A stretch of DNA of 64,000 nt from Xiphias gladius. Taxonomy: Eukaryota; Chordata; Actinopteri; Istiophoriformes; Xiphiidae. Within the stretch, counting starts at the first letter, position 1. The number at the start of each line of letters is the position of its first letter. The notes under the pieces are model-generated. The model had not been told where the DNA came from. It worked only from the letters and a program-made list of their open reading frames with translations, and made no database searches. The stretch spans positions 23,180,001-23,244,000 of the forward strand of contig NC_053413.1 in the NCBI RefSeq assembly GCF_016859285.1, given 5' to 3'. Positions 17,777 to 62,993 of this stretch are shown piece after piece. Both the position numbers and the translations under genes were made by a program.

Positions 17777-19600
17777 ATGACTCCCTTTGTACTTGTCTGT
17801 GCTGTTTCTCTGCTCCATTTATGCGACGCACAAGGTAAAAAGTTAACTTTTATTTTTCTACAAATATTGTTTTGTTCTTGTGTTGTTGTTGTTGTTGTTG
17901 TATTATAGCACGATTTCAGCAATAGAAGTTGGATTAAAAAAAACACAGCGTGTTTTCAGCAGGAGATGTAACTCAATGTTTCATTGGAACAAATTTTCTC
18001 AATATATAATATTGAGAAAAAGTACATGATTCTCAGTGATGTGCTCAATGTAAATTATTTCAATAGTTATTCTAAAAAAAAAAAAATCTAAAATTTTATT
18101 TTATTGAGATATATTGAAATACATTATATATACATTATATTACGTTATGTCAGGTATTACTGATAGACTCAGACAGGATTTAGGTTTTCCCCAAAAGTTG
18201 TGACTGATGATTGTGACTATATTATCTGTATTTTGATGAGGATGTGGTTTTGAAAGGTTTTAAAAAGGTTTTTAAATCCGTGCCTGGATTTAAAAACCTT
18301 TTTAAAACCTTTCATTTCATTAACCTGTCATTCAAGTTACAAATTTAGAGGATTAGGCATCTAGGAGTTCTTCTTCTCCTGTCAGTTTCTTGGTTTGAAA
18401 TTTCCCCCCTTTTTTCGCATTTACGTTATATAACATCTGTGGAGCTTGTAAAACTTTGCTTTTTGAATCTACAATGTTAGATTGAGTGATCTTGAGATCA
18501 GCTGTTTTTATACGTAATGGAAACACCTTTGGCCTGCCAATAAGACTGAATTGCCTTTTTGTTTCACTTTAAATCACTGAACACATCAGACATGGGGGCA
18601 GTGACTCAGAGGGTCTGGAACCAGTGTATTATATCCACCCAGTAATAGTTTTTAATTGTATGATGTAAACTTCCACCAGGTTTTTAAAACCCCTCTAATT
18701 CACTGACAAACATAGAGCCTTACAACTGGAACACGATATAAAATGCAGCCATAATTGATGTTATTTCCCCGTTCTTTTCTGGCTGTGACATGTCAAGAGT
18801 CTGCTTTAAAAAAGGCTTAAACTTTACACTTTGAAACAAATCAAAAGCATTTTAAGTAACCACACCCTGAAATTCAGCTTGAACCCTTCCTCCCAGCATA
18901 CTTAAGAAATACAAGTGGGGTAGTGATGCTGAAAGCCGTTCTTTTCAGTGTACTGACTCGCTTGAAACAGTTACTTTGAAAGACTCGTTCAAGAGAATCT
19001 TTCACCGATCGGTGCTTGACAGGAACGCCGACTGTGCAGTCCCACTCACTGAACTGAAACAGGCCGAACGGTGTGTACTCCTCTTGGTCCCCGGCCTCTC
19101 ATCTTGATTGTAACTGGATATGAGACACTTGTAATGGCCAACAAGTTCTCAAACCTTAATAAGAATATATGTTGTTTGTTCCTACCCTCTGATACGACCC
19201 ATAGGGGTGTCTCCCGAATTTTGTGCCCCTAAGGCAGCAAGGAGATACGAGCACAGATAACTTAAAAAGCACTGTTGTGTAATGTGATAAATGACGAACA
19301 ATTATATGATATGACAATGCTAAAAACAGCTTGGTTAGGTTTAGGGAAGGATCATGGTTTGGGTTACAATAAGTACTTTATTAAAGTTAGAGGATGTTCG
19401 TCGTCATGGTTCCGATAATAAATGCAGCTTTTTCCACTTCAAAACCTGTGAAACCGGTTGAGGCAACACAAAAGTTACAAATTCACAGTTAAGAACTCAT
19501 TAGAAAACCACTGTAATTCACCATTGAAAGAACTGGGGCTTCTCACGTCTTTCTCTTCTTCTCTGTTTTTTCTGTTAAACTTGACCTGTTACAACACATT

Positions 19601-19645
<45 letters not shown>

Positions 19646-22600
19646 CACGCAGCTTCATTTCATTAACAGGCAACAAAAACAACCCGACTATGCTCTGTTG
19701 TTGCTCACTTTGTGAGGGGTGAGGGCCGGGGGGAAGTGTAGACACGCTCATCTCTTCATCATCAGTACTTATGGCGATGTCGGTTCTTGCAATGCAGCAG
19801 TGCATGGCAGAAGAAGCATTCGTTGTGCGAAGAAAGGATTTAGTATCCTTATTGATATTTACCTCGTTTCTGTCCCTATGATGGACACTGCCGCATCAGT
19901 ACTTTTGAGGAGCAGTCCATCAGATCGTCAGTTAAATATCTTTAATTGGTTATGATGAGTTCAGCTCAACCTATTATTGTGGTCGCTCTACTTACTAAAG
20001 GCAGAAGATTTAAAAAATAAAAATAAAAAAAAATAAAAATGTTATCTAATTTATTGAAGTTGGCAAAAAAGCACTTTTTACAGGGCGCACAGTAAACTCA
20101 GTACCATGTAGTGAATCTAGTTGAAACCTAAAATTGGGGAGAGTACCACTCTGATTTTACGTTAATGACTAAAGGATTTCCCCTGTGTTTTAGTTAATGG
20201 AAATAAATGTGTGCTAAAAGGAGGGAGTGCCATTCCTTGATTCCTCTCCCTAAATGAATATATAAATAAATATGAAATGACATAATAGATAACTAACAAA
20301 GTAAATGCCAATCAGTTTATGACCATTATAAAAACACTGGTCATATATGTATAAACATACACATGGTTTTAACATCGGTACTTTTTTGATATCTCTTCTT
20401 TTAGGGTCCAGCGATGTGACGCCAGTGTTTGTGCTGCAAGGAAAGGATGTGATTCTTGAGGTCAAGGAAGCTCAACTCAACACACATACAGATGTTTTCT
20501 GGAAATTTAATAAAAGTTACAATATAGTAAAATTTGCTCGTTCTGGTGAACCATTCATCTTTAAGAGGTATCAGGGAAAGGTTACGCTTCTTGTCAAAAA
20601 TCACTCTTTGCTACTAAGGAACCTAAACGAGAGTGACAGTGGATATTATACTGCAGTATTGACTGGTGAACAAGACCAAATGGCAGCTGAATACAAGGTC
20701 ATTGTCCAAGGTAGGTTTCTTATCTTTTTTTTTTTTTTTTTTGATAGAGAATATTACCTTGTTTTTAAAAGTCTGCTTTTGCTGACCTCTTGCCCCCCCC
20801 CCCCCAGAGCAAGTGTCACCAGTTGATTTGACAGTGAAGTCCAGTAGCCCAGACTCCTGTAACTTCACTGTGGACTGCAGAATAAAGAGCTCCAACATTA
20901 GCAAGACTTTTAGCTGCGTCAACCAGTCCTGCGCTCCGGAGGAAGGAGAGGAAGCCACAGCCTATGATTCCTCTATTAATGTGTACCTGCGACCAGGCTT
21001 CATCTTCTGTAACCACAGCAACCACGTGAGCTGGGAAACAGACGAGGAAAAGAATCATTTTTTCTGTGGGTCACTGCCAGGTACGACGAATGACGTATGA
21101 CGTATTGACATACCGACAGGGATTGACAGTTTAAAGTTACTCATAACCATCTGAACATTTCACACAGCACAGTTCTGTGGAGGCAGACTGGTTCAGTTAC
21201 AGCAGAGTGAGTGGAGCCACGAAAAAAAAACAGACGTAGTTGGAAAAATTGCTAATTACACTTTTTTTTTAAGCTTTTACCTGCTTCCATTCACCTTTGA
21301 TGCCAGATGTTAATTATACTCTCAACATTTCGGCATACACTCGGGACCTTTTTTAGGGGTTGAATTATAGTGTGGCTAGGCTGCAATTTTTTTTTTTCCA
21401 ATCAGCATTGCAGGGGCTTGATTATTAACTTAGCCCTTGTATAATGCAGTCTCATGCAGAGTTTTCTGCTTTTTCTCAAGGAAAATACCCACTGTCACTG
21501 GGTGATCTAAAAAGTTGTGAGTTATCATAACTCAGACAGGGAGATTATTTCTGCTTTCAGAACACTTCTTTCTTTCCAAAAATATTTGTGAAATTCAAAC
21601 TGCAACCTTGAAGTATGCCAACATTTCTGATCCAGTCCTTTTTCTTTTTCTTTCCAGTTTCTAATGAAGCCACCATAATTGCGCTTGGGATTACCGCTCC
21701 GATTGCTAGCCTCGTTGTCCTTTCCATTTGCCTTTTCATAAAATGTAAGTCCCACTGTGCAGAGGATAATGCAATAAAAATCTTGATAATTTTTAGCAAA
21801 TGGAAATCCAGCATTGCAGCGTTATCAAGAACAGGAATAACTTGCTGTTCATTCGTTTCAGTTGTGCAAATGAGAAATGCAAGTTCAGTTTTGCCCAATA
21901 GCAGAACAAAGACATTAACACTGAACCTGAAAATAAGACAGGTGCCATATTTTGGATTTGACTGATGTGTCAACATTGACATCTCTAAATTGGCTAGATA
22001 GCTTGTTAGCTCAAGAGCTGAAGCGGTTTGAACAGTTTAAAATCTTTCTACCGAATGTAAAAGATCAGTCATTGTAGATGGTGGGTGGTGTGGTGACATT
22101 ATGTCAGACAACTGTGCTTCCTCTCAACCACTACCAATAAACACGGATACGAGCTACAAAAACAAAAGTTTGCCTGCATCCTTGTCCCCTCCGTTTGGTT
22201 GTTTGCCAAACCCACGTAACCGTTCAAAAAGCCCAGAAGCTTGTTGAATGACTCACAGAAGGGACTGCGATCCAGCGAAAACTGCGATTAAAATTGTTAA
22301 CAGAATATGAAAATACATGAAAACGTGAAAAACTTTGACTGCAAAAAGGTACGTGTTTTTCTAATTTTGGTTGGACTTCAGTGATTAACCATATATAAAA
22401 AAAAACCTCCTGTGGAAAGGAATCCACAGCTATGGCAGAGTGCATGATTTACTATACACACACAGGATGGGGTTGTTCTGTGTGGGAACAGCTCAAAATA
22501 TTTTCTTCCTTCATTACAAAAAAACTGACAATTTGCAGAAAAGGGAAATTTAACACTTTAAAAAAACTGAAGTATCTGAGGAAAATATACATTTTAAGCA

Positions 22601-23749: not shown

Positions 23750-24260
23750 AAGAAAATACCTGGCTCTCTACCTCAGTACCCTAATAGTACTTCATCACTG
23801 CAACTGGAAGTTTAGAGGAGCTGCTAAACATAACACAGGCCACAGCAAACGAACAGTGCAGAAAACAACATGAAATATAATATTTCTTCACATGAGTCCA
23901 AAACCAACTACAGAAGGGCAAAAAGGGACACGGCAGTGAGACACACAGACCAGTAGTCAGATTAAGGCTTCATGTTCTCTGTGCATCCGTGGATGCATTT
24001 ATGCAGAATTCACGCTGGTTTTTAAGGCTGCCTCTGGGCTTATACCGTCTAAGCTTTCTCATTCTGTCGAGTCTGGTGTTCCCTCTTGCACGCAGAGCAG
24101 CCACTAACCCCCTACCAACCTGCGGAGGTGAGGGGATAAAACCAAACAGGGTGCAGCCAGTGTCAGCCAGTGACAGGGCTTCCACACTATCTTGAGATTT
24201 TACTACATAAAATTTTTCTACAGATGAATGATGCATGTGCTCTTTTGTGCGGTCCCGAAT
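23750..24260. other. Intergenic spacer between the two SLAM-type genes
   Basis: Only about 1 kb separates the stop of the first gene from the start codon of the second. I see no exon here. The open minus-strand frame at 23970-24374 overlaps the start of the next gene and has no recognisable domain. Confidence 0.5.
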
Positions 24261-24269
24261 GTGCGTGCC

Positions 24270-24332
24270 CACGTGACACGAGGCACTTCCTATTGCCTGT
24301 AGTAGGAAGTTCGTTTTAAGCTCCACTTCCTC
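24270..24332. promoter_or_regulatory. Cluster of ETS/PU.1-type sites and an E-box before SLAM-type gene 2
   Basis: An E-box CACGTG (24270-24275) is followed by three ETS cores within 50 bases: ACTTCCT (24285-24291), AGGAAGT (24304-24310) and CCACTTCCTC (24323-24332; its complement GAGGAAGTGG fits the PU.1 consensus). They lie 11-70 bases before the start codon. ETS/PU.1 sites near TATA-less start regions are typical of leukocyte genes. Binding is inference. Confidence 0.4.
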
Positions 24333-24342
24333 ATATAGCAGA

Positions 24343-24818
24343 ATGGGTCCAATTTCATTTTTACGTGCTTTCATTCTGATGTATTCATGTCAAATGCAAG
24401 GTAAAGCTTTTTTTCTTACTAATATTACAAATTTTTTGGATTGTTTTTATTCTTTATTAAAAAAAAATTTAAAATCTGGTTGTTGTATTTTCGCGCTAAA
24501 ACACGAGGGTAGTAGGACATGAAATAAAACTAACTGAGCGGAGGCGAGGAGGAAGCCGAGAGGCTTGCATGGAAATCTGATTAGATCAAGTGTGATGATA
24601 AACAGGCAGACAAAAGAAAAGTAAGAGCAAGAATAAAGAGGTTTGAAAATTGTCAGAGATGTAAAAATTGTAGGAAAAACAGATAAAATGTACTAGTTTA
24701 ATATAACTAGTGCAGTGCCTGTTCACAACGCGCTTGTTATGTCAATACTAGTTCAATATTTTTTTTCAGTCATCTAGTCTTCATCATGTAATCTCCACGT
24801 CACTTCTGTATGATGATG

Positions 24819-24903
<85 letters not shown>

Positions 24904-27900
24904 ACCCTATTTGTCACATACCTGATCAGAAAATCCTGGACCCCGACCTCACAAGGACTGCCGTGACACACACACGCTCACTGGCCAATTTATTAAGTAC
25001 ACCCAGATAAAACTGATGCAGTTGGATACAAACAGGTCCGCAATAAATCCTCCCTTCACGAAGATTATAATGTTCCGTTCAGGGAAGGGGAAACCGGATA
25101 AAACGGCCGATTAACAGCGTTACACGACCCATGTTGTGACCGCACCACAACAGCAGCGGTGCATAAGTGGCTCTTTCCGCCCCTCGGCCGTCCTGATATA
25201 TTCTGCCCGGGTGGGCATACAAAGCAAGATGGTGCCGTCCCGCTGAGCCATTTCCAATTTCCAGAGCTTGGGTCTCTGTGTAAAATAGCCCCACGCTCCA
25301 GACGGTTCTGTGCGAGGTTTTGTGGCTGCCCCTTGTTTTCCGGGGACAGTGAGTACCTGACCCAGGATGGCGGATGTGGGATTGACACGAAATCAGAATA
25401 GACACAACAGTATACGCGTAAAGTCTGGACTGGAGCGAACTTAATCGAAATACAAACGATGGATTCAAACAAAACACCAAGCCCTGGGGTGGATTATGTC
25501 TGCTAGTAAGATAGAAACCTTCTCACAACCAAATGGTGTGACACTTCAAACAAGTAAGGGAATAACTGTAGTTCAGGCAGCCATTGAAGTGAAACAGATT
25601 TACAAATCAAATCTAAAGGATATTACATAACAAGGTGGAAGAAGAGAAACTCACATCTTTGCGAAGTGGGTCAAGACTAGTCTGGGAAAAGCTGCTGGTA
25701 CCTGACAGAAACAACCTGACGAAAACTCAGTGGCGAGCAGAGACTGTAGCTGCTGAGCGCTCACCTCCTTCGTATGCTCATTGTTTTTTAAATGGGGGCC
25801 AATATTTCACTAAAAGAGTCGGCAAGCAAGTGTTACTCTGGCGTAATTATGAAAAAACTGGCTCTTCCGAACACACAGCATATATTCCATATACCTAAAT
25901 ACCCAAATGTAAAGTCTGACGCCAACGAAAACTATTCGTAGGAGAATTTCCTTAGCTAGGGAAAGACAATGGTCATAGTCAGTCTAAACCTGACTCGAAA
26001 GAGCTACAATCAGACACATACCTAAGTGGCTGGTGACTCTGATTTTGAAACCATCAGTTTGCATGTTTCCCCTACGTTCTTATGTACAGCACAAGTGAGT
26101 ACAGGAAATGGATTGAAGAGCCCTGCATGATCAAAAAAAACAAAAAATGTTATCTCTAATGAGATAAGATCATAAACACATTACAAAAAACATTTTTGAG
26201 ACAGGTGGTGCATAGTTATTGTTTTCAAAATCTGAGAAATTACATGTTATGTATAATGAGATTTAAATGTATTATAAGACTGTTGAATGGTCTCTTTTTA
26301 TTACATTACATTAATGCGGAACCAATCAAGAACAGGCCACTTCGACACGTGGAAAGAGGCAGCAAAGGATCAAAGTGAGGGAACAATAATGTGGGTGAGA
26401 AGGGTAAAAGAGAAAAAGTCCCCTGTTTTCCAGAAGAGAGAGACTGGGTAGACTCTGCAGTGTTGAAAAGAAAAATAAAAGACTCTGAGTAACAACTTAC
26501 AGTTTCACCTGTCACACTCCCCCTTCCTGCAGCAAGTTGTGCTAAAAGACTGAGCCAGTGCAATTAAATACATTTACCGACCCTCAATAAACCGCGATAA
26601 GCTGAAGATACTTCACAAATTTTGAACTGATGGTCCAGTGTGTCAGAAATAAAGAACAGAAATGGAGTAACATTCAGTACTGACTAAAGAACCATACACT
26701 GCCTGTGATTTTTATTGTGTTATGTGTCTATTGTTTTTCACAGGGTCCAGTGCTGCGACTCCTGTGTTTGTGCAGAAGGGCGGTGATGTTCTTCTGGAGG
26801 TCATGCAAGCTGATGTACCTACAGATTTTCTTTTTCTTTCATGGACATTCAATAGAAGGGACGTTTTAGTAATATTTTCACCCGGCAAAGAACCAGTGGT
26901 CTCCAATGCTTACGATGGCAGGGTTGAGGCTTTTGTGAAAAATGACTCCGTCAAAATGAAGAATCTAACAGAGGCCGACACTGGAGTTTACACTGCGCGA
27001 GTGGTAGGGGTTCAAGAACAAATACTAGCTGAATACAACGTCACGGTTGAAGGTAGGTTTGTTAACATTTCGGACGCTGGTGGAGACTAACTGCCGCCAT
27101 GTTTCTAAAACGCGTCACGCAAACTTTCCCCCCCTCAGATCCAGTGTCTCCAGTTGAGCTGACAGTAGAGTCCGTGTCCGCCAGCTCAGACTCCTGTAAC
27201 ATCAGTGTGACCTGCAGCACACGGGACTCACATCACATTAACAGCACTTTCCGATGTGACGCCCAAACCTGCGGTCAGGAGGGGGGACAGGGAACCCAGG
27301 TCGCAACCGCTGGCGCTTCCCTCCATGTCTACCTGTCGCACGGCTCAATCGTCTGTAACCACAGCAACCGGGTCAGCTGGGCCAAGGACATGAAAACAAC
27401 GAAACATTTTTGTACCAGACACGCTGGTAAGTCTGACGGACAAAACAACCGATTTACAACAATACACAGTTTGGATTTAGCCCAGGTTAACCAGTTTTTA
27501 CACTGAGAACAAAAACGATTCGCCTTATCTTTCAGCCAACGTGAATTGTTAGTATTGGGAACGTTATAGAGCTGAACTTTAAAATGGTCAGAGGAGTTTT
27601 CCGTTTAGCTCTAATATTTTGACTGGCAGAACTAGCTGTCATTATTAACCTTTACCAGGATGGCTTTGTAAAACTAGGTGGCAGGTGGAACTTAAACTTA
27701 CTCATTCAGGGACTTTGGGAATGTTGGTGGTTTTACATTGTGTTTGGCTCCAACCATTAGGTTAAAAAACAAGTTATGTCTCACTACACATCAGGTCTGT
27801 TATGTCATGCAGCCTGAGCTAAAGTGGGTACAGATTTCTAATCTGTTTTTTGTTTGTCTTTACAGAGCCTATAACCTACCGTAACTATGTTATTGGTATT

Positions 27901-30231
27901 GCCAGTGTGGTTGTTTTCGTCACACTACTCATAGCACTTGTTGCAGCTGTTCGTTATCATCGAAAAAGCGGAAAATGTAAGTCCAAGCGTGCATTTCATA
28001 TAGAAGCCCTGAGTTTTCCAATGAACTGTACACATGAGGGTCAAGTGAAAAGACTGACTTTTTTACGCCAGGATCATTTTTATTCATCTGTGAAAACAAG
28101 CCCTGAGAGACAAGTTTTTTTTTTTTTTTTTTTTGGTCAGGATTTTTAGAAATGATTGTTTTTGTATTATTCATTTCGGCCAAAGGAGGCTGAAGTGCAC
28201 CACTACCCCCCGTCTAAATAGGAATAAAAGCATTCATGTTTTCTTCTAGGTTATTTTTAATTTCTCCATGCACTCTAAACACAAGGTACATATATTGTGC
28301 GTTAGTGACTTATGTAACATTACTGTCGTATCTTTCTTTTGGCAAGTTGGTTCAGTACCTTTTGCCGTTCATGCAGTGTCCACATTATAGATGGGAATCC
28401 ATCCATTTTATATGTGATTATTGCATCTGTCAAATTATTTTTCCATTGTAGAAAAAGAGACAATGTCCGAATTGGTTTTGCCTTTATGCTTTAGTTTAGC
28501 CCGTTCATTCTAAGCATCCCCAGGCTACATCTCAGGGGCAAGGAGAGGGGTATTTTTGCCAAAGCGCCTTTTTTGATACTATCTCTAAAAGTTGCCAACG
28601 TAACAGAATATCAAATCCTACAAATAGGGGTTTTAAAGTGTGCTAATATGTGAAGATGGAATTATTCAGACACACACAAAATCTGGTCTTAATATAGGCA
28701 CAGCTCAAGTACGGTAAAAGTGAAGAAAGGCAGAAAAAGAGTATAAAAGATTAGAGCATGCTAAGAAAAATGTCATTTTCACCATGTATTTTTCTATGAC
28801 TGACCTGCAGATAAAAGACAGGACACTGAAAATACAGTGTGTGCAGATCCTCAGGTAAGCCTCAGTTTTTGAAACATCACTCTTCCAACTTTGCCAGATG
28901 AGATAAAGGAATTTCAGATTTGAGCAATTTAACAATTGAGACTGGATTTGAGGAAAGAGGCAAAACGATGAAGGTGGTCTATTTGCTGTACATGACCCGT
29001 GGCTCCTTGCTAGGCCAACTACTGAATTAATCTGCCGTTCCTGGTCCCGCTGCTTGCTCCCGCCCGCAACATGTGTTCGCCACTGGTCGTGCTGCTGCTT
29101 CCTTGTGCTCAAATAAGCGTGATGGAATATCCAGACGGACCGCGATCACTCCGCCGGACGTCCTTCCAAGGTCTTGTCTGGAAATTAGTCCACTCAAACT
29201 GCAGTATGTTTCTTTGCGCTGCGTGTGTGTGGGTCAAATTGCTGAATGTGTGTCTTTCGTGCATCGTTAGAAAGGTCAAAAGGTCCAGTTTTCAGAGCAG
29301 GTGACACAAACTCCAAAACTATGGTTTGACAAAAAAGCACATGCATTTTCCAAAAGATGCTGTGCTCTCAAAACTCTTCATACACTTATCACAATCACAT
29401 ACTGGTCTCCAAAAAGACAATACTACAACAATGAGAATATTGCAACCAGCGTCTGCACTTGTGTTCAGTGCTTTTGCAAACCATGTTTTCTATGGGATAG
29501 TTGTTTGAAAATGTCAGTAAACTGAAGAGACCAGAAACCTTAATTTTCAGTCTTAGAACAATTCAAGAGAAGAAGAAAAAAAATGTAATTTGCAATTTCT
29601 TTCTCCAAAGGCTATGTACTGCATGTGTAGACAAGGTGGTGCCAATGCTTTCTTTTTTCGCTCTTTTTTAAGTTGCAGTGTGTTGTGCTCTTTCAGCCAA
29701 GGGATTTGATTGTACTCAAATAGCGAATTTGTCCAAAACCTTACTTTTCTCTTGATAATAAAAAAAAAACACACCTAAATATGTGTTTTATAACCATTTC
29801 TTGCATTTTGGATTAAAAAAAAAAAAACGTATTCAATGTAATGTCATGAAAAACGGGGTTATCGCTTTAGTAGTCAGTGATACAGACGTTTGTGGTTTCC
29901 GGAAGATATAGACGAGCTATTGTTAATCATAGTGAGATGACTTGACATGTTAGTAATACAGTACAATAGCACCTTTACAAAGAGTAAAGTAATAGTAAAA
30001 TAAAGTGCGATGTAAAATGCAAGCAATCCTTGCCAATAATGTTTTCTGTGACTTATTTTCCAGGTCGAAACTATAGCACAACATCTGGTTACGAATCCAA
30101 CCAATGATGCGCCTTCATCCATCTACGACTCGGTACGGTCTCATCCTGGATCCATGGGATCCACTGAGGCTGAATGTAGGACTGTGCCAGAAACTTTGTA
30201 TTCTGAGGTAAAAAAGCTTGCCATGGCCTGA
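24343..30231 (+). CDS. SLAM/CD2-family receptor 2 (two-Ig, single-pass, ITSM-containing tail)
   Basis: Tandem paralogue of the preceding receptor with the same exon plan and phases: 24343-24400, 26744-27052, 27139-27426, 27866-27976, 28811-28854 and 30064-30231, giving 325 residues. Residues 1-19 form a hydrophobic signal peptide (MGPISFLRAFILMYSCQMQ). The V-type domain (about 20-122) lacks cysteines and has LTEADTGVYTA. The C2-type domain (about 123-218) has six cysteines and CNHSNRVSW. TM is about 227-248. In the tail the first motif reads NTVCADP: the tyrosine present at the same place in receptor 1 is a cysteine (266). SIYDSV (Tyr291) and the canonical ITSM TLYSEV (Tyr316) remain. The V and C2 exons are the left arm of a 751-bp inverted repeat whose other arm is at 31808-32558. 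The TM and tail exons lie in the loop. The first exon is my own call, based on length, phase and GCAGAATG context identical to receptor 1. Confidence 0.86.
24811..24901. repeat. (GAT)n(AAT)n trinucleotide microsatellite
   Basis: Three GAT units run into about 27 uninterrupted AAT units. It lies in intron 1 of SLAM-type gene 2 and yields poly-Ile and poly-Tyr phantom frames. Confidence 0.97.
24970..25080 (+). mobile_element. Truncated DNA-transposon terminus
   Basis: 'ctcactggccaatttattaa' followed by 'gtacacc' closely resembles the terminal sequence of fish Tc1-like elements, and 'gcaataaatcctcccttca' downstream matches a word also seen at about 34832-34850 ('gcaataaatcccaccttc'). No matching second terminus was found, so it is truncated. 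Confidence 0.45.
26698..27448 (+). repeat. Left arm of the 751-bp inverted repeat
   Basis: Covers 46 bases of intron 1, the V exon, the short intron, the C2 exon and 22 bases of the next intron of SLAM-type gene 2. The reverse complement of 31808-32558 aligns over the same 751 bases without gaps. I count five substitutions (one in intron 1, one in the short intron, three in exons), about 99.3% identity. Confidence 0.92.
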
Positions 30232-30645
30232 AAAAAAATCAGGAATCGCATTCCACGTACTGCCCATGTTGTGATTTCCAGTTTGTATTCAAGTGTTGCC
30301 CGAGCTGGCGACACAGCCCCCCCCCCCCATGTGACTGAAGTGTAGACTTTCAGCTTTATTTCAAGGGGTTTGACAAAAATATTGCATTCACCGTTTAGGA
30401 ATTACAGCCATTTTATGCATAGTCCCTCATTTTCAGAGGCTCAAAAGTAATTGGACAAACCGACATAATTAGAAATATAAGGATTAGTTTTAATACCTGG
30501 ATGGAAATCCCTTAGTTGGTCTGAACATAAGGATCAATGCCAGAGAGGTACATTATGCTGGGAAAAGCCTCAGACTTTTCAGAGACCCCTTTCAAGCCTG
30601 TCTTTTTGAGTATTTATGTGCTGAAAAGATAAGTCAAGTGTAATT

Positions 30646-31161
30646 CACTTTATTAGGAACACTGTGCTATTACTTGGCAGGGCCTCCCATTGCTCTCAAA
30701 ACAGCCTCAGTTTCTTCGTGGCCTGGATTCCACACGATGTTGGAAGCTTTCCTTTGAGACTCTGGTCCCTGTTGACACGATTGCATCACATATTTTGGGC
30801 AGATTTGTCAGCTGCACCTTCATGCTGCCAAATCTCCCTTTCTACCTCATCCCAAAGGTGTTCTGTTGGATTTCGATTGGCTCGATATGTTTCATGTTTG
30901 GCTGTTGTAAAGCAGACGATTGGGTTTTGGGGGGAGGGGGCGGGATATGGTTCATACAACCACCGTTTTTGGTGTTACGTGCATTTCTATTCAAAATGCT
31001 CCAAGTGGTTTGTCTCCTCTGTTATAACGTCTCTGACTATTTTCTAGAGTAAGCCCTAGAGACCTGCACCTGCATGATTTTATGCACTGTAGCGCTGCCA
31101 TGTGATTGGCTGATGGGTAATTGCATGAATAAGCAGGTGTATGGGCGTTCCTAATAAAGTG
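30646..31161 (-). mobile_element. Internally deleted Tc1-like transposon
   Basis: Exact 15-bp inverted ends: CACTTTATTAGGAAC at 30646-30660 and its complement GTTCCTAATAAAGTG at 31147-31161. On the minus strand the interior encodes a broken remnant of the transposase C-terminus (read as fragments like NTFGMR, QLTNLPKICDAIVS, SFQHRVES and a Ser-rich-free basic end). It corresponds to the region after the NPIEH motif of autonomous Tc1 transposases, with stops and frameshifts. The N-terminal and catalytic middle are deleted. It lies in the loop between the inverted SLAM arms, after the stop codon of SLAM-type gene 2. Confidence 0.8.
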
Positions 31162-31807
31162 CCTGGTGGGTGATTTGATTCAATAAAATTACAAAAATAT
31201 GAGGGGGGTATGTAGCTTAAATAAGTGTCCAGTAATGTTGAATGTACAATTAACTGCTTTGCTTAGTTCACCCAAAGATTAAAACATGATTAAATAAATA
31301 TTGGGAATGATCAATTTTTGGTCAAATGAACATGGAACAAACATACATGCAAGCTTTTTAAGAATATTGAAAATATGACCACATGCAGTCTTACATATAG
31401 TGTATTAATCTGGGCAATTTTGTTGTTGTTGTTGTTGTTTCAAGATAATATCTACAAAACATTTTTTAACAAAGGCATCTCTTTACAACCATTGTATTTA
31501 CAAAGTGAGCACATTCATTATCGGGCACAATCAATGGATAACGAAGAATAATCAGTATCTGTATTAAATATTAAAAGTTTTCTTGTGAGGAAACAATGTT
31601 TATGTCTGCATTTAGTGTTCCACACAAAAACAGATTGTGACTATTCTTGAAGCCCTTTAAATGAAACTTCGTTTGTATTTCAACCCTGCAGCCTGACAAA
31701 GTGGTTGAGTCATGTTCAGAACTTATTTATGTGGATGTATAAAAGGTTTTATTTGAAAAATAGATTCTTGTATGATCTAACTTTAACTTTTATTCATTAT
31801 CCGCAAA
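31162..31807. other. A/T-rich non-coding stretch
   Basis: I looked on the minus strand for a transmembrane exon continuing the inverted SLAM copy (which would follow its C2 exon here) and found none. A (TTG)n run lies at about 31421-31439. No gene seen. Confidence 0.5.
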
Positions 31808-32558
31808 TTGTTTTGTCCGTCAGACTTACCAGCGTGTCTGGTACAAAAATGTTTTGTTGTTTTCATGTCCCTGGCCCAGCTGACCCGGTTGCTGTGGTTA
31901 CAGACGATTGAGCCGTGCGACAGGTAGACATGGAGGGAAGCGCCAGCGGTTGCGACCTTGGTTCCCTGTCCCCCCTCCTGACCGCAGGTTTGGGCGTCAC
32001 ATCGGAAAGTGCTGTTAATGTGATGTGAGTCCCGTGTGCTGCAGGTCACACTGATGTTACAGGAGTCTGAGCTGGCGGACACGGACTCTACTGTCAGCTC
32101 AACTGGAGACACTGGATCTGAGGGGGGGAAAGTTTGCGTGAGGCGTTTTAGAAACATGGCGGCAGTTAGTCTCCACCAGCGTCCGAAATGTTAACAAACC
32201 TACCTTCAACCGTGACGTTGTATTCAGCTAGTATTTGTTCTTGAGCCCCTACCACTCGCGCAGTGTAAACTCCAGTGTCGGCCTCTGTTAGATTCTTCAT
32301 TTTGACGGAGTCATTTTTCACAAAAGCCTCAACCCTGCCATCGTAAGCATTGGAGACCACTGGTTCTTTGCCGGGTGAAAATATTACTAAAACGTCCCTT
32401 CTATTGAATGTCCATGAAAGAAAAAGAAAATCTGTAGGTACATCAGCTTGCATGACCTCCAGAAGAACATCACCGCCCTTCTGCACAAACACAGGAGTCG
32501 CAGCACTGGACCCTGTGAAAAACAATAGACACATAACACAATAAAAATCACAGACAGT
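31808..32558 (-). repeat. Right arm of the 751-bp inverted repeat
   Basis: Reverse-complement partner of 26698-27448, same length, five substitutions. Homology stops sharply at both ends: below 31808 the sequence is unrelated to intron 3 of SLAM-type gene 2, and above 32558 it is unrelated to its intron 1. Confidence 0.92.
31830..32512 (-). pseudogene. Inverted partial copy of SLAM-type gene 2: V and C2 exons only
   Basis: The V exon (32512-32204) and C2 exon (32117-31830) keep their frames, GT-AG splice sites and phase-1 boundaries. Relative to the parent they differ at three coding bases, all amino-acid changing: Val to Ala near the V-domain end, and Gln to Lys and Lys to Arg in C2. No transmembrane or tail exon was found downstream, so it could at best encode a secreted ectodomain: reading through the last donor adds a short tail ending NKS before a stop. 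An upstream exon with a compatible phase-1 donor lies 143 bases away (see the chimeric fragment). Without transcript evidence I call it a partial copy, probably a pseudogene. Confidence 0.7.
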
Positions 32559-32654
32559 TATGCAGAGGCACCGGCTTGTGATGCTCAGTAGTGAATATTA
32601 CATTACTCACGTGTCATTGCCTAACATTTTATCAAACAGTGTTCTTCTTCCTAC

Positions 32655-32812
32655 CTGGTGTCTCAATGCAGACCACCAGTCCCAGTATCACAAAGAAAGA
32701 TATTCTATTCTTGTCTTCATTAGAGTCATTTTTCACAAAAGCCTCAACCCTTCCATTGTAAGCAATATAGACCATTGGCTCTCTAACCAGGTGGAAACAT
32801 TACTAAAACATT
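32655..32812 (-). pseudogene. Chimeric fragment: diverged V-exon piece fused to a signal-peptide-like exon
   Basis: On the minus strand about 32812-32726 aligns with the middle of the SLAM V exon (PMVYIAYNGRVEAFVKNDS versus PVVSNAYDGRVEAFVKNDS) but is clearly more diverged than the inverted arm. It continues in the same open frame into NEDKN followed by a hydrophobic run RISFFVILGLVVCIETP. This ends at a phase-1 donor (G|GTAGG at 32655/32654), exactly the arrangement of a SLAM signal-peptide exon. The only in-frame Met is in the V piece. It may be debris of older SLAM duplications, or a makeshift first exon for the inverted copy. Confidence 0.5.
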
Positions 32813-32879
32813 ACACATTATATTTATATAATGTGTAATACATTACACTTTATTATACATTATATTCTGTCAAAGCTGG

Positions 32880-33130
32880 TGCAAGCAGGGTAACCGGAGC
32901 GCAGGCGATAGGGACCCAAATGCAGACGCAGAGGCAGAGTTTATGCAATTCGGTGATTTATGGTAAACAAACAGGAACCTAAGCTTATGTAATGGTGATG
33001 CAGGCAGGTGTCAAGGACCAGTGGAGCCAGTCCAAACAAACACATCCAGAAGATTCACAGGCGGGAATCCCAAGTCCAAAAAGTCACAGCACCGGTGAGG
33101 CAGGACGTGAAGCGCACAGTGAAGCAACAT
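32880..33130 (+). repeat. Probable dispersed repeat (GGACCCAAATGCAGACGC type)
   Basis: The phrase 'agggacccaaatgcagacgc' with 'atttatggtaaacaaacagg' downstream is familiar to me from fish interspersed repeats, but I cannot name the class and see no termini. Low confidence. Confidence 0.3.
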
Positions 33131-36100
33131 AATGTTCTGACAGCTGCAAGGGTGGAAAGACAAGGCTATATATACACAGAGACTGACTGATTTTTAGCCC
33201 CATTGGGCTGCTGTTTACAGTAAATGGCTGACTGAACTTGCAACGATAACCACTTCCTTTCTGAGAGCTGTGAAGTTAAGACATTGTTTTTCATTGTCGG
33301 ATTGCTCTGTGCGCAAGATGAAAATCACCTGTGGTAAACTGGGGGTAAAATGTGGTAAGTGTTCATACTGAAGATATACATCGTTTGAGAAAACAAAGGA
33401 ACTTTACGTCTGTACAGGGTAATCGTTCTGCGCTAGGAAACAAAAATAAGATTAGGAGAAAACCAACCATAAGTAAGGCAAAAGTCAGACCTGATCCCTG
33501 GAGCACTTGGCCCTGCACCAGTGTGCTACAAAAAGACATCTGAATGCAGTTCACATGAGAATACAGTAAAGTTTGTGGAAAAAAAAACAAAAAACAAACT
33601 TATTTTACATATCCTCATTCCCACTCTGAAGGACTGAGTCGATACACTAGTTGTCAGGTTTTATTGGCTCTCTGTCCTTCACTCTTCAACACTTAACTCT
33701 GGGACGTCCGAAATCTGAAATCAGAGAACACCTGACTTGTGCTGTCGACCGAACGGTTTTAATTCTCCTTCACTCTTTAGATGCCAAAAGCCTCCTGTTG
33801 TTGCTTAGTGCTGCGGCAACATTAGTCTACGTTCGATTTATTTATTTGACATTAATATTAGGCTCTGGAGGGATTACCAAGGGGTCGCTGGCTCTGATCC
33901 CAGAACAGCTAAGAAGAACGGGCAGTGCCCCTCCCTCAATATTTAGAACAGGAAGCTTGTGAGCAAGACAGTTGAACCTTGTGGGCTGGCTTGGTGGCAA
34001 CAGTAAAACACCTGCTGTAGTTGAATTCAAGATGGTTATGTCAAAAGATACACAAAGTCCTCGTTCCCAGAAAAATATGAAAGTAGAGACATGTCCAATG
34101 GCAGAAAATACAAATAAGCAAGTCTATAACATTGGTTCTAAGATTCTGCTGCAGTATGCCACGTGGACTGGAGTCTACTGTATTTGAGGTTGTAGGTTTC
34201 TTTATCTAAATGGTGTTTTTTTTTGAATGGGCAGACACGGCTGCGTTACCACAGCATTTGACTGACTGTGATCGCAAGATTCAAACTAGGAGAAGACCAC
34301 CGTTGAAAGCAGGTAGACACAGGAGTCGCGCTTGCATTCAGAAAATGTTACAGAATAGACGGGAGTCTAACGGGGGCGACGGAGAAAGTGGTGACAAAAA
34401 ATTTAGCTTCGGGCCGCAAGAACAGACTTCCGAGGCTATTTTCGCTTATTTTTACGACGGACATGTTAATTCGGACAGACACACTTATTGTTAGGACTGG
34501 ATTCACTAAGTGTTTTTGTCAGGTTTAGTGTCTTGTATGGACTAGAAAGATGGAGCAGAATTTTGTAAGTTAAGATTCAGACCCAGAGCAGGAGGGGGTA
34601 TTTGACTCTTCACGCTGAGTCATGGCACACTGAGCCAAGTGATTTTATAATGTACTGTGCATTGGCTGGTGTTAGACCAGACCCTTAGTCCGTATTGAAT
34701 TATGCTAAAATCAAAAATTAAAAGAAAAAGAAAAAAGATTAAATCTAGATGTACACGCAGATGCAATTTTTGCTAAGGTAGACCAAGCTAAAAATGCGTC
34801 CAGTCCAATGCAGTGTAATACGACAGCCCTGCAATAAATCCCACCTTCTTGACAAAGTAAAAACTGAACATTACAACCCTCAAGAAGATTGGAAGTGTCA
34901 GTGCGCTTTTGCATACCCTAACATCTGACAGCGTTGGCGTCAGTACGAAACGTTTTCCTTTGGTAAATCATTTTACTCTGATTTACAGTGAGAAGTGAGT
35001 GAGAAGAAGCCAAATCTGTCGAACAAACAATGACAGATTTTGTCCTTGATGCATCATCTGCATTTTGATGACATACAAGTCACGCGTAATCTTTCCCAAG
35101 CCGCAATCCGCAGACCTCAAACCCATGAGGCTGAAAAACTTTAATCTTTCTTTGCTTCGCTGCAGGTAGGAATCCCAGCATGATGCCTTCCGGCAGAATA
35201 CCCAGTGTTTGCATTTGTCATGCCAATTTGCATTACAATGTTTTCCCACACTCATGTTAATCTATCTGCTGTTCTTCTTGCCCACAGATCCTGCATCTGT
35301 TTCAGGAAGTGCTTTTTTTTAAAAAAAATCAAATGCTGCCTGCTTATTTAAAAGAAGCTGTGATCGAGGCCAAACTCCTGCCCTGCCAAAGCCTGGACTT
35401 AAACCAGATCAGCTCAAAGACCTGCTGGTCAGTTTAGAGCCTCATCAGATGCATCTCTGCATCTTAAAACTCTCTGCGAAAGAAGAGGCTTTCGCAGCAT
35501 TAACGCTGAGGAAGAATAATCTGCCAACAGTTTTTACTGATCAGCCGGGGATTTTTAGACCATGACTAAAATAATCCATCTTCATATAGACAAAAGATGC
35601 AAGATGGATCATATTCTGAATCCATTTGCATAATAAATTGCTGATAAAAAAAAGGCACGTCGACTTCCACAAGAGAAAGATCACTATAACGCCAGGAATG
35701 GTCATTGTTAGCCACTGAATTTATTCCTGTCAGTTACTGTAGGTTTGCTTATTATCTTTATAGGTTGATACTTTATTTCGGCTTGCAAACCCTTTCCTCA
35801 CACAAGGTGTCCAGCAATTCAAAACTAATGTGTCATGAGATGTTTTCAGTGACAGACAGTAGCAACAGTTACAGTTTACCTGACTTGCATCGGGCATATT
35901 GGTGGAGTTAAAAAAAAAAAAAAAAATTCATAGTAGTTTAATGTGTGTACAATCAATAGGCCGGTCAGTGGGATTTCTGAGGCTTTTCTGGATGTATGTA
36001 GAAGGGTCAGTGTCAATTGGTCCTCTGATTTGAGGAGGCTGAGGACTTTCAAAGTTCGAGTCTGACCTTTAACTATAGGCTATTTTCAGAGCCAAAATGC

Positions 36101-37860
36101 ATCATCACTCAATGTTTAATCGAAATCAGTCCAGTGACTGTAGCATTGCCCATCTGACCTTTTACACTCATCTCCTATTTTTAATCAAGTAGGAGTTTTT
36201 GGGTGAGGTGATAAAGGATGAAGGATGAAGAGGGTCTTTTAGTGTTGTTTTTCCAAACACCCGCATGGACACTTCATTGGAGGACAATCCCAAATCACAT
36301 TATTTGTGACCGGCCTCTGCATTATGTAGAGGATAGAATAAAAATGTACATAAAAGTTTAACAAGGTCCTTGGAGTGAAATGGAATTGCCTGCGTTTTAT
36401 CTCATTTCTCTCTGCATGCACCGCGCAGCTTCATTTACTCATGTTAATAATTCAAGGCAAGGTGAGAAAACTGACGATTTAGTGCTCACTGAGTAAAGAG
36501 CAGAAAACTTTTGACATAACCACAGCGTGACTGTAGTATTAGGATAACATGAAGACTGGATACCAAGGGGGCAAAGTGGGCAACTGCCCCGGGGCCCCAA
36601 AGCTTCAGGTTTACTGTGGATCATCTGTTTCGTGTTAATTTTATTGAAGAATTGTTTGGCAATATGCACCACGAGAGCACAAAATCAGCTGACAGGATGT
36701 GGACCACAGAGTGTATCCTATTTCATTTCCTGATCTTGAGTCCCCGTCTTGAAGCGAAGCCGGTCTGTGGTCCTTGAGTTCGCAGGATTTTTGACCCTAA
36801 AACAGAAAAACAAGACCGTCAGATCTCATTTTAAGACCATCATCGCTTCAGTTTAGTGCTTATAAACTGAAGTGTTCCTAAATGACAAGTTTAATCACGT
36901 TACCACAGAGCAACTCTAGGGTCAGGGAGTGTTTCACCGTAGAAAAACTTTACACATTGCATCGAGAGTGGGAAAAACATGGGGTTCATTGAGACGCGGC
37001 AGCTCGTTTTCGGGGATTATGAATAAACAGTACAATACTATAGATTTCTCTTTATATCCTCATATGGTCACATTTTATGCCACTTCATCCATTTTTGTGT
37101 AGCAAAGGATCTCAAATTTCCTGCATTTGGACACTTTGAATATAATTTGTATTTTGTCCTTTTTGAAAAAAATTTTGAGTGACATATTATGTATTTGTCC
37201 ATCAGCGCCTATACGTGGGGGCTGCAGTAGTCCTTTTCTTGCAGTTTCGTTGATCATATGTTGATTGTAAACTGCCCTCAAGGTAGTTTATTTCGTTCCC
37301 CTTGGAGATTTTAAAGCTTTTTTTTTTTTTTAGGACTCCGGTAACGCTGCCGCCACAAGATGGCGACAGCATAAAGCAAAAAAACCCACCAGCCACTTGA
37401 CAACTTCTCTGCCTCGTAGACAAAAACCCAGTGACATCATCTGCGGAGGGACAGAGGGTGTGCGAAGGACAAATGTCTTGAAATGCATTACATCATTCTC
37501 CACTAATATGATAATATATCTCAGGCGCTGAGTGTGGTGCCAAGCATGAGAGGGGCCATAATCCATGTGACGACCACTTCAAATGTGAACAAGGGGATAA
37601 AATAGAAGTGGTGGTGGGGGGGAGGTTCGGGGGGGGGGTCCACTGGAGTCGGGAGTGCAGCACTGAAGGTTATTCCAGACATTATCCCTCAATGAGAGCA
37701 GGAGGAGAGAGGAGACGGTATTCACTATTAGACACTGAGTAAAGATGAAGACGGGATCAGCTCTAACGCTCCCTGTCTGTCTTCTGTCCTTGTCTTTCTG
37801 TTTTTCTGCCGGAGATGTTAGTTCTGTCTCGCGTTTGCTTTTTCGCCATCCTCATTTTTC
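33131..37860. other. Non-coding stretch between the SLAM locus and the purine tract
   Basis: No exon of a recognisable family on either strand. It contains a repeat trace at 34805-34890 (sharing 'gcaataaatcc' plus context with about 25041) and small A- and T-runs (35911-35926, 37319-37332). Short open frames have no domain signal. Confidence 0.45.
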
Positions 37861-37867
37861 CTGTCAT

Positions 37868-39664
37868 TCAGGGGAGAGGAGAGGAGGGCTGTGGAGGGAA
37901 ATGAGACAATGATGGGAGAGTATACGGTTGCAGAGGGGAGAGAATGACTGAGAAGTATAGGAAAAAGGAGGGATGAAAAGATCTGCACAGTGAAAGAGGG
38001 GCAGAAAAATTGAGAGAGGAGAGGGGAGGAATTGAGAGCAAAAGGAGAAAAAGAGAAAACAGAAAAGGGAAGAGGAGAAGAAGGTTGGAGAGGTGCCAGC
38101 ATTTTAGAGAGGAGGCAAAAGAAAAGAGGAGAGAAGGAAGATGAAGAGACATAGAGGAGTGAAGAGAGAACTGAAGAGCGACTGCAAAGACTGGAAAGGG
38201 GAGAGATGAGAAGAGGACTGAGGAGAAAAAGGAGAAAAAAGAGGGAGGAGGCAGTGAAAGGAGGGAAGACGAGGAGAAAGAGGAGAGAAATGGTATAGGA
38301 GATGTGAAAGGAAGAGTACAAAGATTAGAGGAAAGGACAAGAGGATGAGGGGAGGTAGAAGAAGGACTAAGATGAGGTGACAAAGGGATAAAGGAAGAAA
38401 ACAAGTGAGAAATGAGATGGGAGAGGAGGAGGTTAGGGAAGAGAAGGGGTTAAAGAAGGACAGAGAGGAATAGAGGGGAGGAGGAGGAGATTTAAGAGGT
38501 AGAGAGACTACTAAGATGAGAGGAGGAGGTGGATGGTGAAAGAATGACTGAGGGAAATTGAAAGAAAAACATGGGAGAAGAGGGGGAGGTTAGAGAGATG
38601 TACATAAAAGGAAAGAGAAGATGAATCAAAAGAAGAGGAGGGGATAGAGGATGGTGGAATGGAGAACTGTAGAAGATGGGAGAGAAGAGGGGAAAGGATG
38701 ACTGAGGAAGATAGGTGAGAGAGGAGAAGATGTCAGAGAGATGAGAGGACTGACAGAAGGAGAGGAAAGAAGAACAGACAAATGATAGGTAAGGGAGAAA
38801 TGAGGAGATTGACGGAGGGAGAAGAGGTGGAAGAATGACTGATGAGACTGTGTGAGAAGCCTCAGATGAGAGAAAGAGGGAGGGAGGAGGAAGTTAGAGA
38901 GATAAGAGGAGGACTGCTGGGATGAGCCAAGGAAAGAGGAGACTGCAGAGGAGAGGTAAAAACAGGGTGAGGAGAGATGACGAGAAGAAAGAGAAGAGGA
39001 AACGAGTGGAGGAGAAGAGGGTAAACAAGAAGGATGGAGACATGAAAGAAGAGGTGAGGAAAAGGAGGGAACAGGAGTGAAAAAGAGGGAAGAACAGAAT
39101 GTTGAATATTTGAAAAGATGGCTAACAAGACTGAGGAAGAGAGAAGAAGATGTGAAAGGTGACAAAGGAGAAAAGAGGAAATGAGAGGAAAAAAGAGGAA
39201 AACAGGAGAGAGGCGAATGTTTGAGAGATGAGAGGACTGAGAGGAGGAGGTAAAAGAAGTAGAGAGATGAAGAGATGTAAGAGAGGTGAAGGGAGATTTG
39301 AAAAGATAGGAGAGGCAAAAGACTGACTGTAAAGAAAAAAGGAAAGGAAAAGATAAGAATGGAAAAGTGAAAGAGGAATGTAAAAGGGGGAGTGGCAAGA
39401 AGAAGAGACATAAGGAGATGTGAAGGAAGAACTGAGAGGAGAGAAAAATCACTGGAAAGCTGTGAGAAGAGGGATTGCCATAATAAAACAATGGGAGAGG
39501 AGAAAAAAGCAGAAGTGGACAATAACGGGAGCAACGCAGGAAGGGAAAGGAGGGATGAAGAGATCGGGCATAAGGGCGGAAGAGAGCAGAGAAACAGGAG
39601 AGAAAGAGAGAGGTTATGGAGGTGACAGAGAGAAAATGAGTTTTAAGTGAGAGGAGAGACTGAG
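37868..39664 (+). repeat. 1.8-kb polypurine (GA-rich) tract with degenerate repeats
   Basis: Almost entirely A and G on the plus strand, built from words such as GAGGAG, AGAGGAA and recurring phrases. AGAGAGATGAGAGGACTGA or close variants appear near 38734, 38897 (with a gap) and 39224, and GAATGACTGA-type words near 37945, 38543, 38696 (GATGACTGA) and 38831. It is an old, scrambled minisatellite-like array rather than a gene. The long minus-strand Ser/Leu/Phe/Pro frames (up to 302 codons) are its low-complexity reflection. Confidence 0.9.
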
Positions 39665-39989
39665 ACTCTGCGCATGCTTGTTTCGGCGTCGTGCGCTGAG
39701 CTCCACTGTCACTATGCTAACATTGGGCTAAACATGCTATATGGCCTTGTGCTGCGTGCTCTACGTAGACACACACTCACTCACTTCCCGTTTCGGGCCC
39801 TGTCCAGGTACAGTCATTCACACTTCGACCTAAATAAACAGCGTGTGAGAGATGTACATTCATTCAAAGTCAAGAGTTTTTGTTAGCCACATCCTGAAGC
39901 GTATTTTATAAAATAAACAAATAAAAGGAACTCCCTGTAAACTCGATGTCAGCAAAATAAATCAGAGAAATGTTACGTCTGTTCTTAAG

Positions 39990-42900
39990 AAAGCCATGTC
40001 TTCTTTTATTTTCTGTAATACTGTGGAAAAATAATTACATACAATTTGAAGGAAAAAAAAAACAGAAATCAAACAGATAAACATGAAAATAAAAATAAAA
40101 ATCAATAATATCTTGTATGTTTTGTACAGTTCTTTTTTTTTTCTTGAAGAAAAGGGATAAACAAGTACTCAAACCCGACATGAACATAATACATGTGAAC
40201 AATATATAGGGATAAAAATAAAGAATAGGAGTACGGAGAATATATGCTTATTTGAACAAACAAACTTTCCCTCTCTTGCCGTCACGCACAGCTCCACTTC
40301 ACACATTGTTAAGTGCAATATGGAATCCTTCTCACTGTTTCTGATCATTGTCTTCGTTTGCTCAATGAGACTTAACAGGACATCAATTAATCCCGTCCAC
40401 TCGTGCCGCCGCTTCGGAGAGCAGACAGGCTCGGCAGCTGGATGAGGGATGAGCAGACCACCTCGGCTCCTCCCGTCTGTCCCAAGGCCACGCGGTGTCT
40501 CCTTCACTCTCTCTTACCAGCTGCGCGCTTTAGGGGTTTTTGACTGATGTGTGGCTTTGAAGGCTGATCGCGATGTTACCACGCTTTTGTAATTTAGTGA
40601 AGATGCTGATGGTAACGTGTTTATTCTCTGCCAATATTCAACACCTTCAAAAAAGTGCCGTTTTTAATCCAAAAGCACACACATACAGCGTTACCAACGC
40701 AATCTTTATGGCAGGGTGGGAAATGCCTTTTGCAGCCCTTTTAGGCAGTTTGAAGTTATAATCCTTGAGATTTTAGTCCTGTTTGATTTCTGGCTACTCT
40801 CGGCAACCGCTAGCGCATTTTGATAACACAGGTCCCTGTGTTTTGTCAAAAATAAAATGTTTTTCGACCACCAGGTACGGGGCTACTCGGGCAGAAATGA
40901 AACACGCAATGTAATGAAGCAGAGGAAGTTGTGTATCTGTGTAATTTGGCATTCTGCTTTATATCAGTGTTCAGTCTGACGTTTGGTTCATTTGGGCTGA
41001 TCTCCTCCTGTGAGTCGGGGCTACTTTGTTTTGTTTTGTTTTGCCCTATCCATCGGTTGCTTCCTTGATCTGGCCTATAGAGCTCTGATTGGTCTGTTGT
41101 CTGTTGTTTTCAAACTTGCAATGAGTACGACACCAGGCGTATTTGAACCAAAATGGCACATACATTTAAGAGGCTATATTAATGCCATTTTAACATCGTA
41201 AATGTGGTGTGATGTAAAAATCTCAAAGATTATAACTTTCACACATATTCAATACCAAGGGAATTGTTGGTTAAAAATACTGCCTTTAGATTAACAATAT
41301 TTTCTCAAAAATGATTATCAAAAATACCAATCTCTAAAGGAAATCCAACGATTGGTTAATTTATCAGCTATTTGCCAAAAACACCAGTCAACCCCTAATT
41401 TCTACAGTCCAGTGGTCCCAACATATTTATAATGGTATGGAAATATACCGGGGTTACATGGTGCCATCACATGTGCACACATACATTTTCACAGATGGAC
41501 GCATACACCCGTGTGCATGTATGGAAACACAAACTAGTAGCATGTGCACACACACACGCGCACACACACACACGCACACGCACGCACCATGAGCATACAT
41601 AAACACAGTAAAAACAAATGGCTGCTGCATTTGTTTGTCTGCTCAGTTCATTTTCTTTGCACAGTCTTTTGAGACTCTCTGGTGTCTCCAAAAGGTAAAA
41701 ATGGAGACCAAGTCACTTGAGTCACTCTTGGCCAGGGAGGGCACGGCACAGCACAGCATGGAAGGGAGCAGTTGGCTGTGGGTCTGGCCTGGTTGTAGCC
41801 TGGGTTGGCCTAGTTGAGACAGAATTTTGGCTATTTGTGGCCTGGCGGAGCAGTCATTTTGGCCACAGACGCACACATCCACTCTCTGTCTTCGCTGGGT
41901 CGATTAATCAGAACGCCCCTTTCCCATGCACACGAGATAAAATAAAAAATACTGCGTATAAAAGTTTAAACACACACTTTTGACCACCACTGGTGGTGTA
42001 ACACCACAAATTATTACCAAGAAAATAAGTTTTAAAATACAGATTTTCATAGAAAGAAAGGAGATCATGAAATAATGACCACTGAGGATGGATGTCATGA
42101 GCTCATGAAGCTATATATTCTCTAAAAAGCAGACCCCCCCCCCAACATACACATACAAGCTAGATTACTATATCTACCCCATATGTTATCATCTTGAAGA
42201 AAATTTGGAAGAAAGCTATGAGAGAAAGGTTTGCAATGATTTTTTTTTTTTTTTTTCTTCATGAAAAGACAGGTTCAACCTCTACATTTGGAAGCTGGTA
42301 GGTGGCTAGTAATATGACGCAGGAGAGAGTAGAGCGTAAAGAGTCACAGTACACACCGCGGTGAGAGGTACATCATATGGGGAGGAGGGAAAAACGACAT
42401 GAAGTAAACACTTCCACATTCCCTTCCCAAACCACATGTGTTTGTTTTTTTTCATCGCAGAACCAAATCTAAACATCCAGCCTATACTTTTGGCATCCAT
42501 GCTGTCTTTTACATATTTATATGCCCCTACTGTCAACAGATTGTAAATAGTTAAGAGGTAATGACTAGGTACCTGGATGGCCTGGCCATGCATCTGTTGG
42601 CCTCAGTACCTCCCCCGTGTCAAACGTATTCATTCCACACAAGGTCATGATGACATTGCAAGTCAGATGCAAAACACTGCGCAGCCATAAGTCTGTAAAA
42701 AGGTTGTAAAGAGGTAATAGTATGCTGTACCAAGGCTGTGATAACCATTTAAATTTAAAAGGATGCTCCATCTGCCGTTCTTCTCTCCATAACTGCTGAA
42801 ACGGTTTATATAGTGACCTTGGAGCTGCAAGGTTCCATCTGATATTCTAATCAGAAATGATGTAGCTGTGGTTTCCTTTCTGGAAGTGTTTATTCAAAAT

Positions 42901-46037: not shown

Positions 46038-60972
<14,935 letters not shown>

Positions 60973-61506
60973 CTGTTCGACGAAGACAGAAGGAGGGGAG
61001 AGGAGAGGAGAAGAGGGGAGAGGAGGTGTGGGTAGAGGACGGGGTGGGTAGAATTTAGGGAGGGGAACCGACAGAGAAAGATCAAAGAAGAGGAGGAGGC
61101 GCATGGTGGAAGGAAAGGACGAAAAAAGGACATAAAAAGGAGGGAACAGGGAACATCACGGGAGAAATAAGAGAGAAGGCAGGGAAGAGAAAGGAGAGAG
61201 ACATAGGGGTGTCACTAATGGAGCCAAGAGAAATGAAGAAATAGAAAACCAGAGTCCAGCTTGCAATGGGATCACACCAGCCGTGGCGCCCGTCAACATG
61301 TTGACGTTCCAACTCGTAAGTACTCAGTGGTCGTTACTACATTATTCCATAAGTGCTCAGTAGTTTTTACGACATTATTACAGGAGTACTCAGTACTCAA
61401 AGGTTGGGACACGCCCGTCTATGAACTCAGCCTTCATTTTGATCTCAACCGCACACCTGTAAAGTTTTGTGACCTTATCTCGCAGAGTTGTGACGCTATC
61501 GCGTTG

Positions 61507-61591
61507 ACAAAATCTGTCCAAGACCGACAGGCAAACTGTGGTGGTTCCCGCTACAGTACATGTCCCCAGGACCACATTTTGCCATGATGAG

Positions 61592-61623
<32 letters not shown>

Positions 61624-62981: not shown

Positions 62982-62993
62982 ACAAAATCTGTC

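Follow-up and report, generated by a model that had tools for sequence, protein, structure and literature searches.

Within the window, a 64,000-nucleotide stretch of a swordfish (Xiphias gladius) contig at C14:23180001-23244000, the V and C2 exons of a CD2/SLAM-type receptor gene, here called gene 2, are present a second time downstream in reverse orientation, and we regard this arrangement as probably (about 0.7) the product of a recent inverted partial duplication of the V and C2 segment, placed beside the apparent remnant of an older SLAM-like gene. The two copies form the arms of an inverted repeat: The left arm lies at 26698–27448 (plus) and the right arm at 31808–32558 (minus), each is 751 bp long, and the pair aligns without gaps around a loop of 4,359 bp. 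Six mismatches separate the arms over their 751 bp, one of which (26702 C/T) is located five bases from the outer end. Four of the five internal differences are exonic, namely 27011 T/C (Val/Ala), 27297 C/A (Gln/Lys), 27385 A/G (Lys/Arg) and the silent 27401 G/A, while the fifth, 27114 G/C, falls within the V–C2 intron; that three of the four exonic changes alter the protein neither shows nor excludes selection. The right arm carries its V exon at 32204–32512 (minus; protein 99% identical to the left) and its C2 exon at 31830–32117 (minus; 98% identical). The first-pass annotation had described two inverted 751-bp arms with five differences, each holding an intact V and C2 exon pair with splice sites and identical phases, and this description stands: Five differences are counted once the edge mismatch is set aside, and all four exons are open and bounded by matching phase-1 splice sites.

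The gene from which the copied segment would derive is complete in its present orientation and encodes a CD2/SLAM-type receptor. Gene 2 comprises, all on the plus strand, a signal-peptide exon of 58 nt with a phase-1 donor (24343–24400; MGPISFLRAFILMYSCQMQ), a V exon devoid of cysteine (26744–27052; V-set, CD48-like fold), the C2 exon (27139–27426), a hydrophobic phase 1-1 transmembrane exon (27866–27976), a first tail exon (28811–28854) and a second tail exon with the stop codon (30064–30231); the joined product has 325 residues. The transmembrane exon and both tail exons were indeed found inside the 4.36-kb loop, as previously annotated, and with the filters used no second phase 1-1 hydrophobic exon besides the former turned up on the loop's plus strand. 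The second tail exon contains SSIYDSV and ETLYSEV, both of which we take to be ITSM-like. Upstream of gene 2 lies gene 1, which follows the same plan, with a candidate signal exon of likewise 58 nt (17777–17834), a V exon (20407–20709), a C2 exon (20807–21079) and a transmembrane exon (21658–21744); its V and C2 domains are each 45% identical to those of gene 2, and the signal-exon donors of genes 1 and 2 read GTAAAA and GTAAAG, respectively.

Sequence and fold alike suggest membership in the CD2/SLAM family. Pfam recognizes a V-set domain in gene 2 (5.3e-7), and neither a CD2/SLAM-specific Pfam model above its cut-off nor a separate Pfam match for the C2 domain was obtained for this gene. In a comparison of V and C2 with solved structures, SLAMF6 (2if7) came first with an E-value of 2.6e-7, followed by CEACAM6 at 0.0011, and a Foldseek search with a model of the V domain placed CD48 entries at ranks 1 to 3; this model was built on three sequences, and one of five was confident (pLDDT 79, the others ranging from 60 to 30). 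Receptors of the CD2/SLAM family have a V domain without the canonical disulfide and conserved cysteines in C2, and their tails carry the tyrosine switch motif TxYxxV/I. Accordingly arranged cysteines are found in gene 2, with none in V and six in C2, all of them common to gene 1, and the switch motif is matched by ETLYSEV in gene 2, within its last exon, and by TVYALV in gene 1. Gene 2 thus shares with CD48, CD244 and SLAMF6 a cysteine-less V plus C2 ectodomain, a transmembrane segment and an ITSM-like tail, and the earlier label "SLAM-type" is borne out by the SLAMF6 sequence match and the V model closest to CD48.

The inverted pair stands alone in its surroundings. When 264 kb around the window (5,000 bases of which are N) were compared with themselves, the non-overlapping pairs at E <= 1e-20 included a single inverted one, namely the two arms, so the pair is more than a chance occurrence; the same comparison lists six pairs in direct orientation, each at least 200 bp long and at least 90% identical, within 20 kb. 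When the assembly (690.8 Mb, 1,298 contigs) was searched with the DNA of the left arm, four places appeared among the best candidates scored: the two arms, gene 1 and a V-exon fragment described below. As all of these lie at this locus, an origin of the arms from a dispersed transposable element is out. Searched in the genome, C2 gave three matches, every one at this locus. V gave nine at E <= 1: strong ones in both arms (gene 2 and its right copy) and in gene 1, and weaker ones in the V fragment (0.027) and at five places elsewhere (0.0016 to 0.45). Several other features were seen in the vicinity: a direct tandem duplication of about 750 bp with 97% identity (61507–62268 / 62252–62997), a 168-bp direct repeat with 94% identity (53986–54153 / 55896–56063), and, in neighbouring sequence, direct repeats of 0.9–1 kb with about 98% identity at C14:23291023-23293108 and C14:23313078-23316258 (loci L028 and L030-L031). 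On the minus strand at 58000–61000 there are pieces of an apparent multi-Ig-domain gene, two short ones of which match Ig domains of titin, Robo, CEACAM and others; we guess that this gene is KIRREL-like.

The right-hand copy consists, unlike CD2/SLAM receptors, of ectodomain exons only. A scan for open exons with a hydrophobic core recovers the transmembrane exons of gene 2 and gene 1 as positive controls; between 31830 and 24000 on the minus strand it detected no transmembrane exon of phase 1-1. Read through its donor, the right C2 exon yields 15 residues and then a stop, and two AATAAA motifs follow just past the exon (31748–31794, minus). Neither the intact signal exon nor the membrane anchor expected of a CD2/SLAM family member was found for the copy. 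Its open frames say little, because 3.6% of single changes create a stop and four changes consequently leave the frames open with a chance of 86%.

On the other side of the right arm lies what the first-pass annotation had taken for a signal-like exon with a compatible phase-1 donor (32655–32720, minus). The donor part of this claim holds in one frame, whereas an intact, usable exon is not present: The hydrophobic frame and the ATG frame disagree. The adjacent ATG reads MKTRIEYLSL and reaches a stop after 10 codons, and the donor is in phase 1 solely in the hydrophobic frame (RISFFVILGLVVCIETPG). The latter enters from the fragment of an old V exon (32723–32809, minus; 85% identical to both arms), within which its nearest in-frame methionine is located, and from this methionine it forms an open stretch of 41 residues. 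A short repeat at this position (AGAATAGAAT) may have caused the break of the frame. The V fragment breaks off at an AT-rich hairpin whose stem measures 13 bp (32810–32839); folding of 91 nt gave a z of −2.65, with 1 of 200 shuffles folding equally well. For first exons farther upstream, the minus strand was scanned from 32563 to 45000, which gave 10 candidates at a first setting that misses the signal exon of gene 2 itself and 12 at a looser one that recovers it; none of these 12 has a donor resembling those of genes 1 and 2. Three candidate places (42068–41978, 40084–40039 and 33618–33555) are strongly hydrophobic, and for this reason a first exon for the right copy further upstream is still weakly possible. 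A whole second minus-strand gene in the present orientation is out, as no transmembrane exon was found down to 24000 and the first exon at 32655 is not intact; most likely, the right copy is an unexpressed or non-productive pseudo-copy.

As to how the arms arose, a 751-bp segment containing V and C2 together with 46 and 22 bases of flanking intron would have been copied in reverse 4.36 kb downstream, probably by template switching during replication or repair, and inserted beside the apparent relic of an older SLAM-like gene; at the outer junction there is an imperfect match of CATAcACTGcCTGTG with CATAACTGtCTGTG, and the right arm adjoins both the broken signal-like stretch and the V fragment. 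The copy was made at the DNA level, because the V–C2 intron is kept in both arms, and a retrocopy is ruled out on the same ground. The arms end sharply in unrelated flanks, as expected for a recent inverted partial duplication: No colinear match between the flanks was found by blastn, the best hit being a 42-base piece far from the arms (E 0.035). Local alignments of the outer flanks were equalled or bettered by 14 of 200 shuffles over 390 bp and by 9 of 60 over 2 kb, those of the inner flanks by 56 of 200 over 420 bp and 50 of 60 over 1.3 kb; extension from the arm ends was equally good in 42 of 300 shuffles on the outside and in 167 of 300 on the inside. The case for a recent duplication rests mainly on these sharp ends and on the missing transmembrane exon. 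At a neutral rate of a few per billion years, the 0.7% divergence would make the arms young, about a million years, an age made less certain by the ability of inverted arms to undergo conversion with each other. The five differences did not reveal which arm is older, since gene 1, compared by eye, is too distant to provide polarity.

Several observations run counter to the duplication reading. The copied piece fits the exon pair closely enough to look purposeful, albeit in a single case, it is unusual for two AATAAA motifs and a stop in frame to follow the right C2 exon so closely, and the open hydrophobic frame of 41 residues as well as the weak first-exon candidates in 32563–45000 would suit a functional copy. 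The inverted pair could instead be older, with a decayed minus-strand SLAM-like gene on the right whose V–C2 part was recently overwritten from gene 2 by gene conversion. The 85% V fragment and the signal-like stretch, which share a strand and lie immediately beyond the right arm, are in line with such a history. Moreover, 15 of 17 bases agree at a similar distance just beyond both outer arm ends, which could be a weak trace of older homology favouring conversion over a fresh insertion. The flanks, however, have no significant homology, and with the V fragment upstream of the signal-like stretch the two are not in gene order, so we hold this history to be unlikely. More improbable by far is a right arm that is a false inverted copy: Inverted copies can arise in long-read assemblies, but a simple read hairpin would not be expected to leave five internal differences, a spacer of 4.36 kb and flanks unrelated to each other. 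Once the arms of a recent inverted duplication are in place, gene conversion could exchange sequence between them, as could crossing over on rare occasions. The latter would invert the loop, which is physically possible, and a rare segregating inversion of this kind, an unregulated allele with loss or truncation of gene 2, is compatible with a recent inverted duplication, so that both can hold. The length, identity and spacing of the arms resemble those of inverted repeats known to mediate inversions, and a rare inversion allele is possible inasmuch as the arms fall within the size range that recombines in the human data of PMC3961182 and PMC6044046. Set against this, the basis is one assembled haplotype, whose sequence bears no sign of a past inversion, and we consider such an allele doubtful, if with an appreciable chance.

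A further explanation takes the flip cassette proposed in the first-pass annotation as one that switches in a regulated manner between two receptors or states. Its geometry, phases and loop content hold, and the upstream first-exon candidates lend it weak support; the Sclerotinia region discussed below (PMC3574095) is a precedent for regular flipping of a segment of 3.6 kb. The second complete receptor would lack a clear first exon, as the one named for it is broken and the others are weak candidates. V(D)J-type recombination signals, scored against the consensus, are at chance level, with one weak site (33311) in 24000–33600 and zero to four per shuffle in 20 shuffles, and in 24000–34000 no structured RNA matched Rfam. 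We give a regulated cassette hardly any credence. A flip is more likely to truncate gene 2, perhaps to a secreted form, than to build a second receptor, because within 60 nt the right inner flank has both a stop codon in frame and two AATAAA motifs. After such a flip, gene 2 would keep its signal, V and C2 exons where they are, and C2 would border what had been the inner flank of the right arm; were the C2 donor left unspliced, an in-frame stop would follow after 15 residues (GKSDGQNNLRIMNKS), and the AATAAA motifs start 13 and 54 nt beyond the arm. Two or more AATAAA occur in 98 of 18,270 60-nt stretches of the window (0.5%) in what is a post hoc test. The inversion would mainly disable the membrane form of gene 2. 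That it serves as a membrane-to-secreted switch, in which a soluble ligand-binding ectodomain replaces the signalling receptor, would require no signal exon on the right, yet we deem it highly improbable. A hairpin of the two arms within the mRNA of gene 2 is less likely, because plus-strand AATAAA motifs (31153, 31182 and 31293) precede the right arm.

Comparable inverted-repeat systems are known. In one human inversion, the breakpoint probably lies in a 782-bp stretch of 99.9% identity within longer duplications (PMC3961182), and 30 inversions of the inverted-repeat class were mapped in one person, with a roughly linear relation between arm length and loop length in human data (PMC6044046). 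The swordfish locus shares with the human HsInv set of these two sources near-identical inverted arms of at least several hundred bases and gene parts inside the loop or in the arms; it differs in that its arms are at the short end and contain part of one gene, and in that one orientation is known. In the MAT locus of Sclerotinia sclerotiorum, 3.6 kb between 250-bp inverted repeats flip every meiotic generation: Here, too, the inverted repeats consist of a partial gene copy, the loop is about 4 kb and one gene is cut by the inversion, but both orientations occur in tetrads and field isolates as opposed to the one known in swordfish (PMC3574095). The flip/flop region of Saccharomyces chromosome XIV likewise has an invertible region bounded by inverted gene copies whose sequences are kept alike; it differs by arms of 4 kb, a region of 24 kb and pairs of expressed genes in the arms (PMC9731477). 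In the literature on teleost SLAM receptors, on flips and inverted repeats, on soluble SLAM and on flips of fish immune receptors, we did not find the present arrangement.

The rearrangement is thus of an uncommon but ordinary type, at an interesting gene. It provides a clear and testable example of receptor ectodomain exons copied backwards, and it teaches that exons can be intact and their phases matched without making up a working second gene. If the loop does flip in the population or in tissues, this locus would constitute a vertebrate immune receptor whose form depends on orientation, a state easily missed by short reads.
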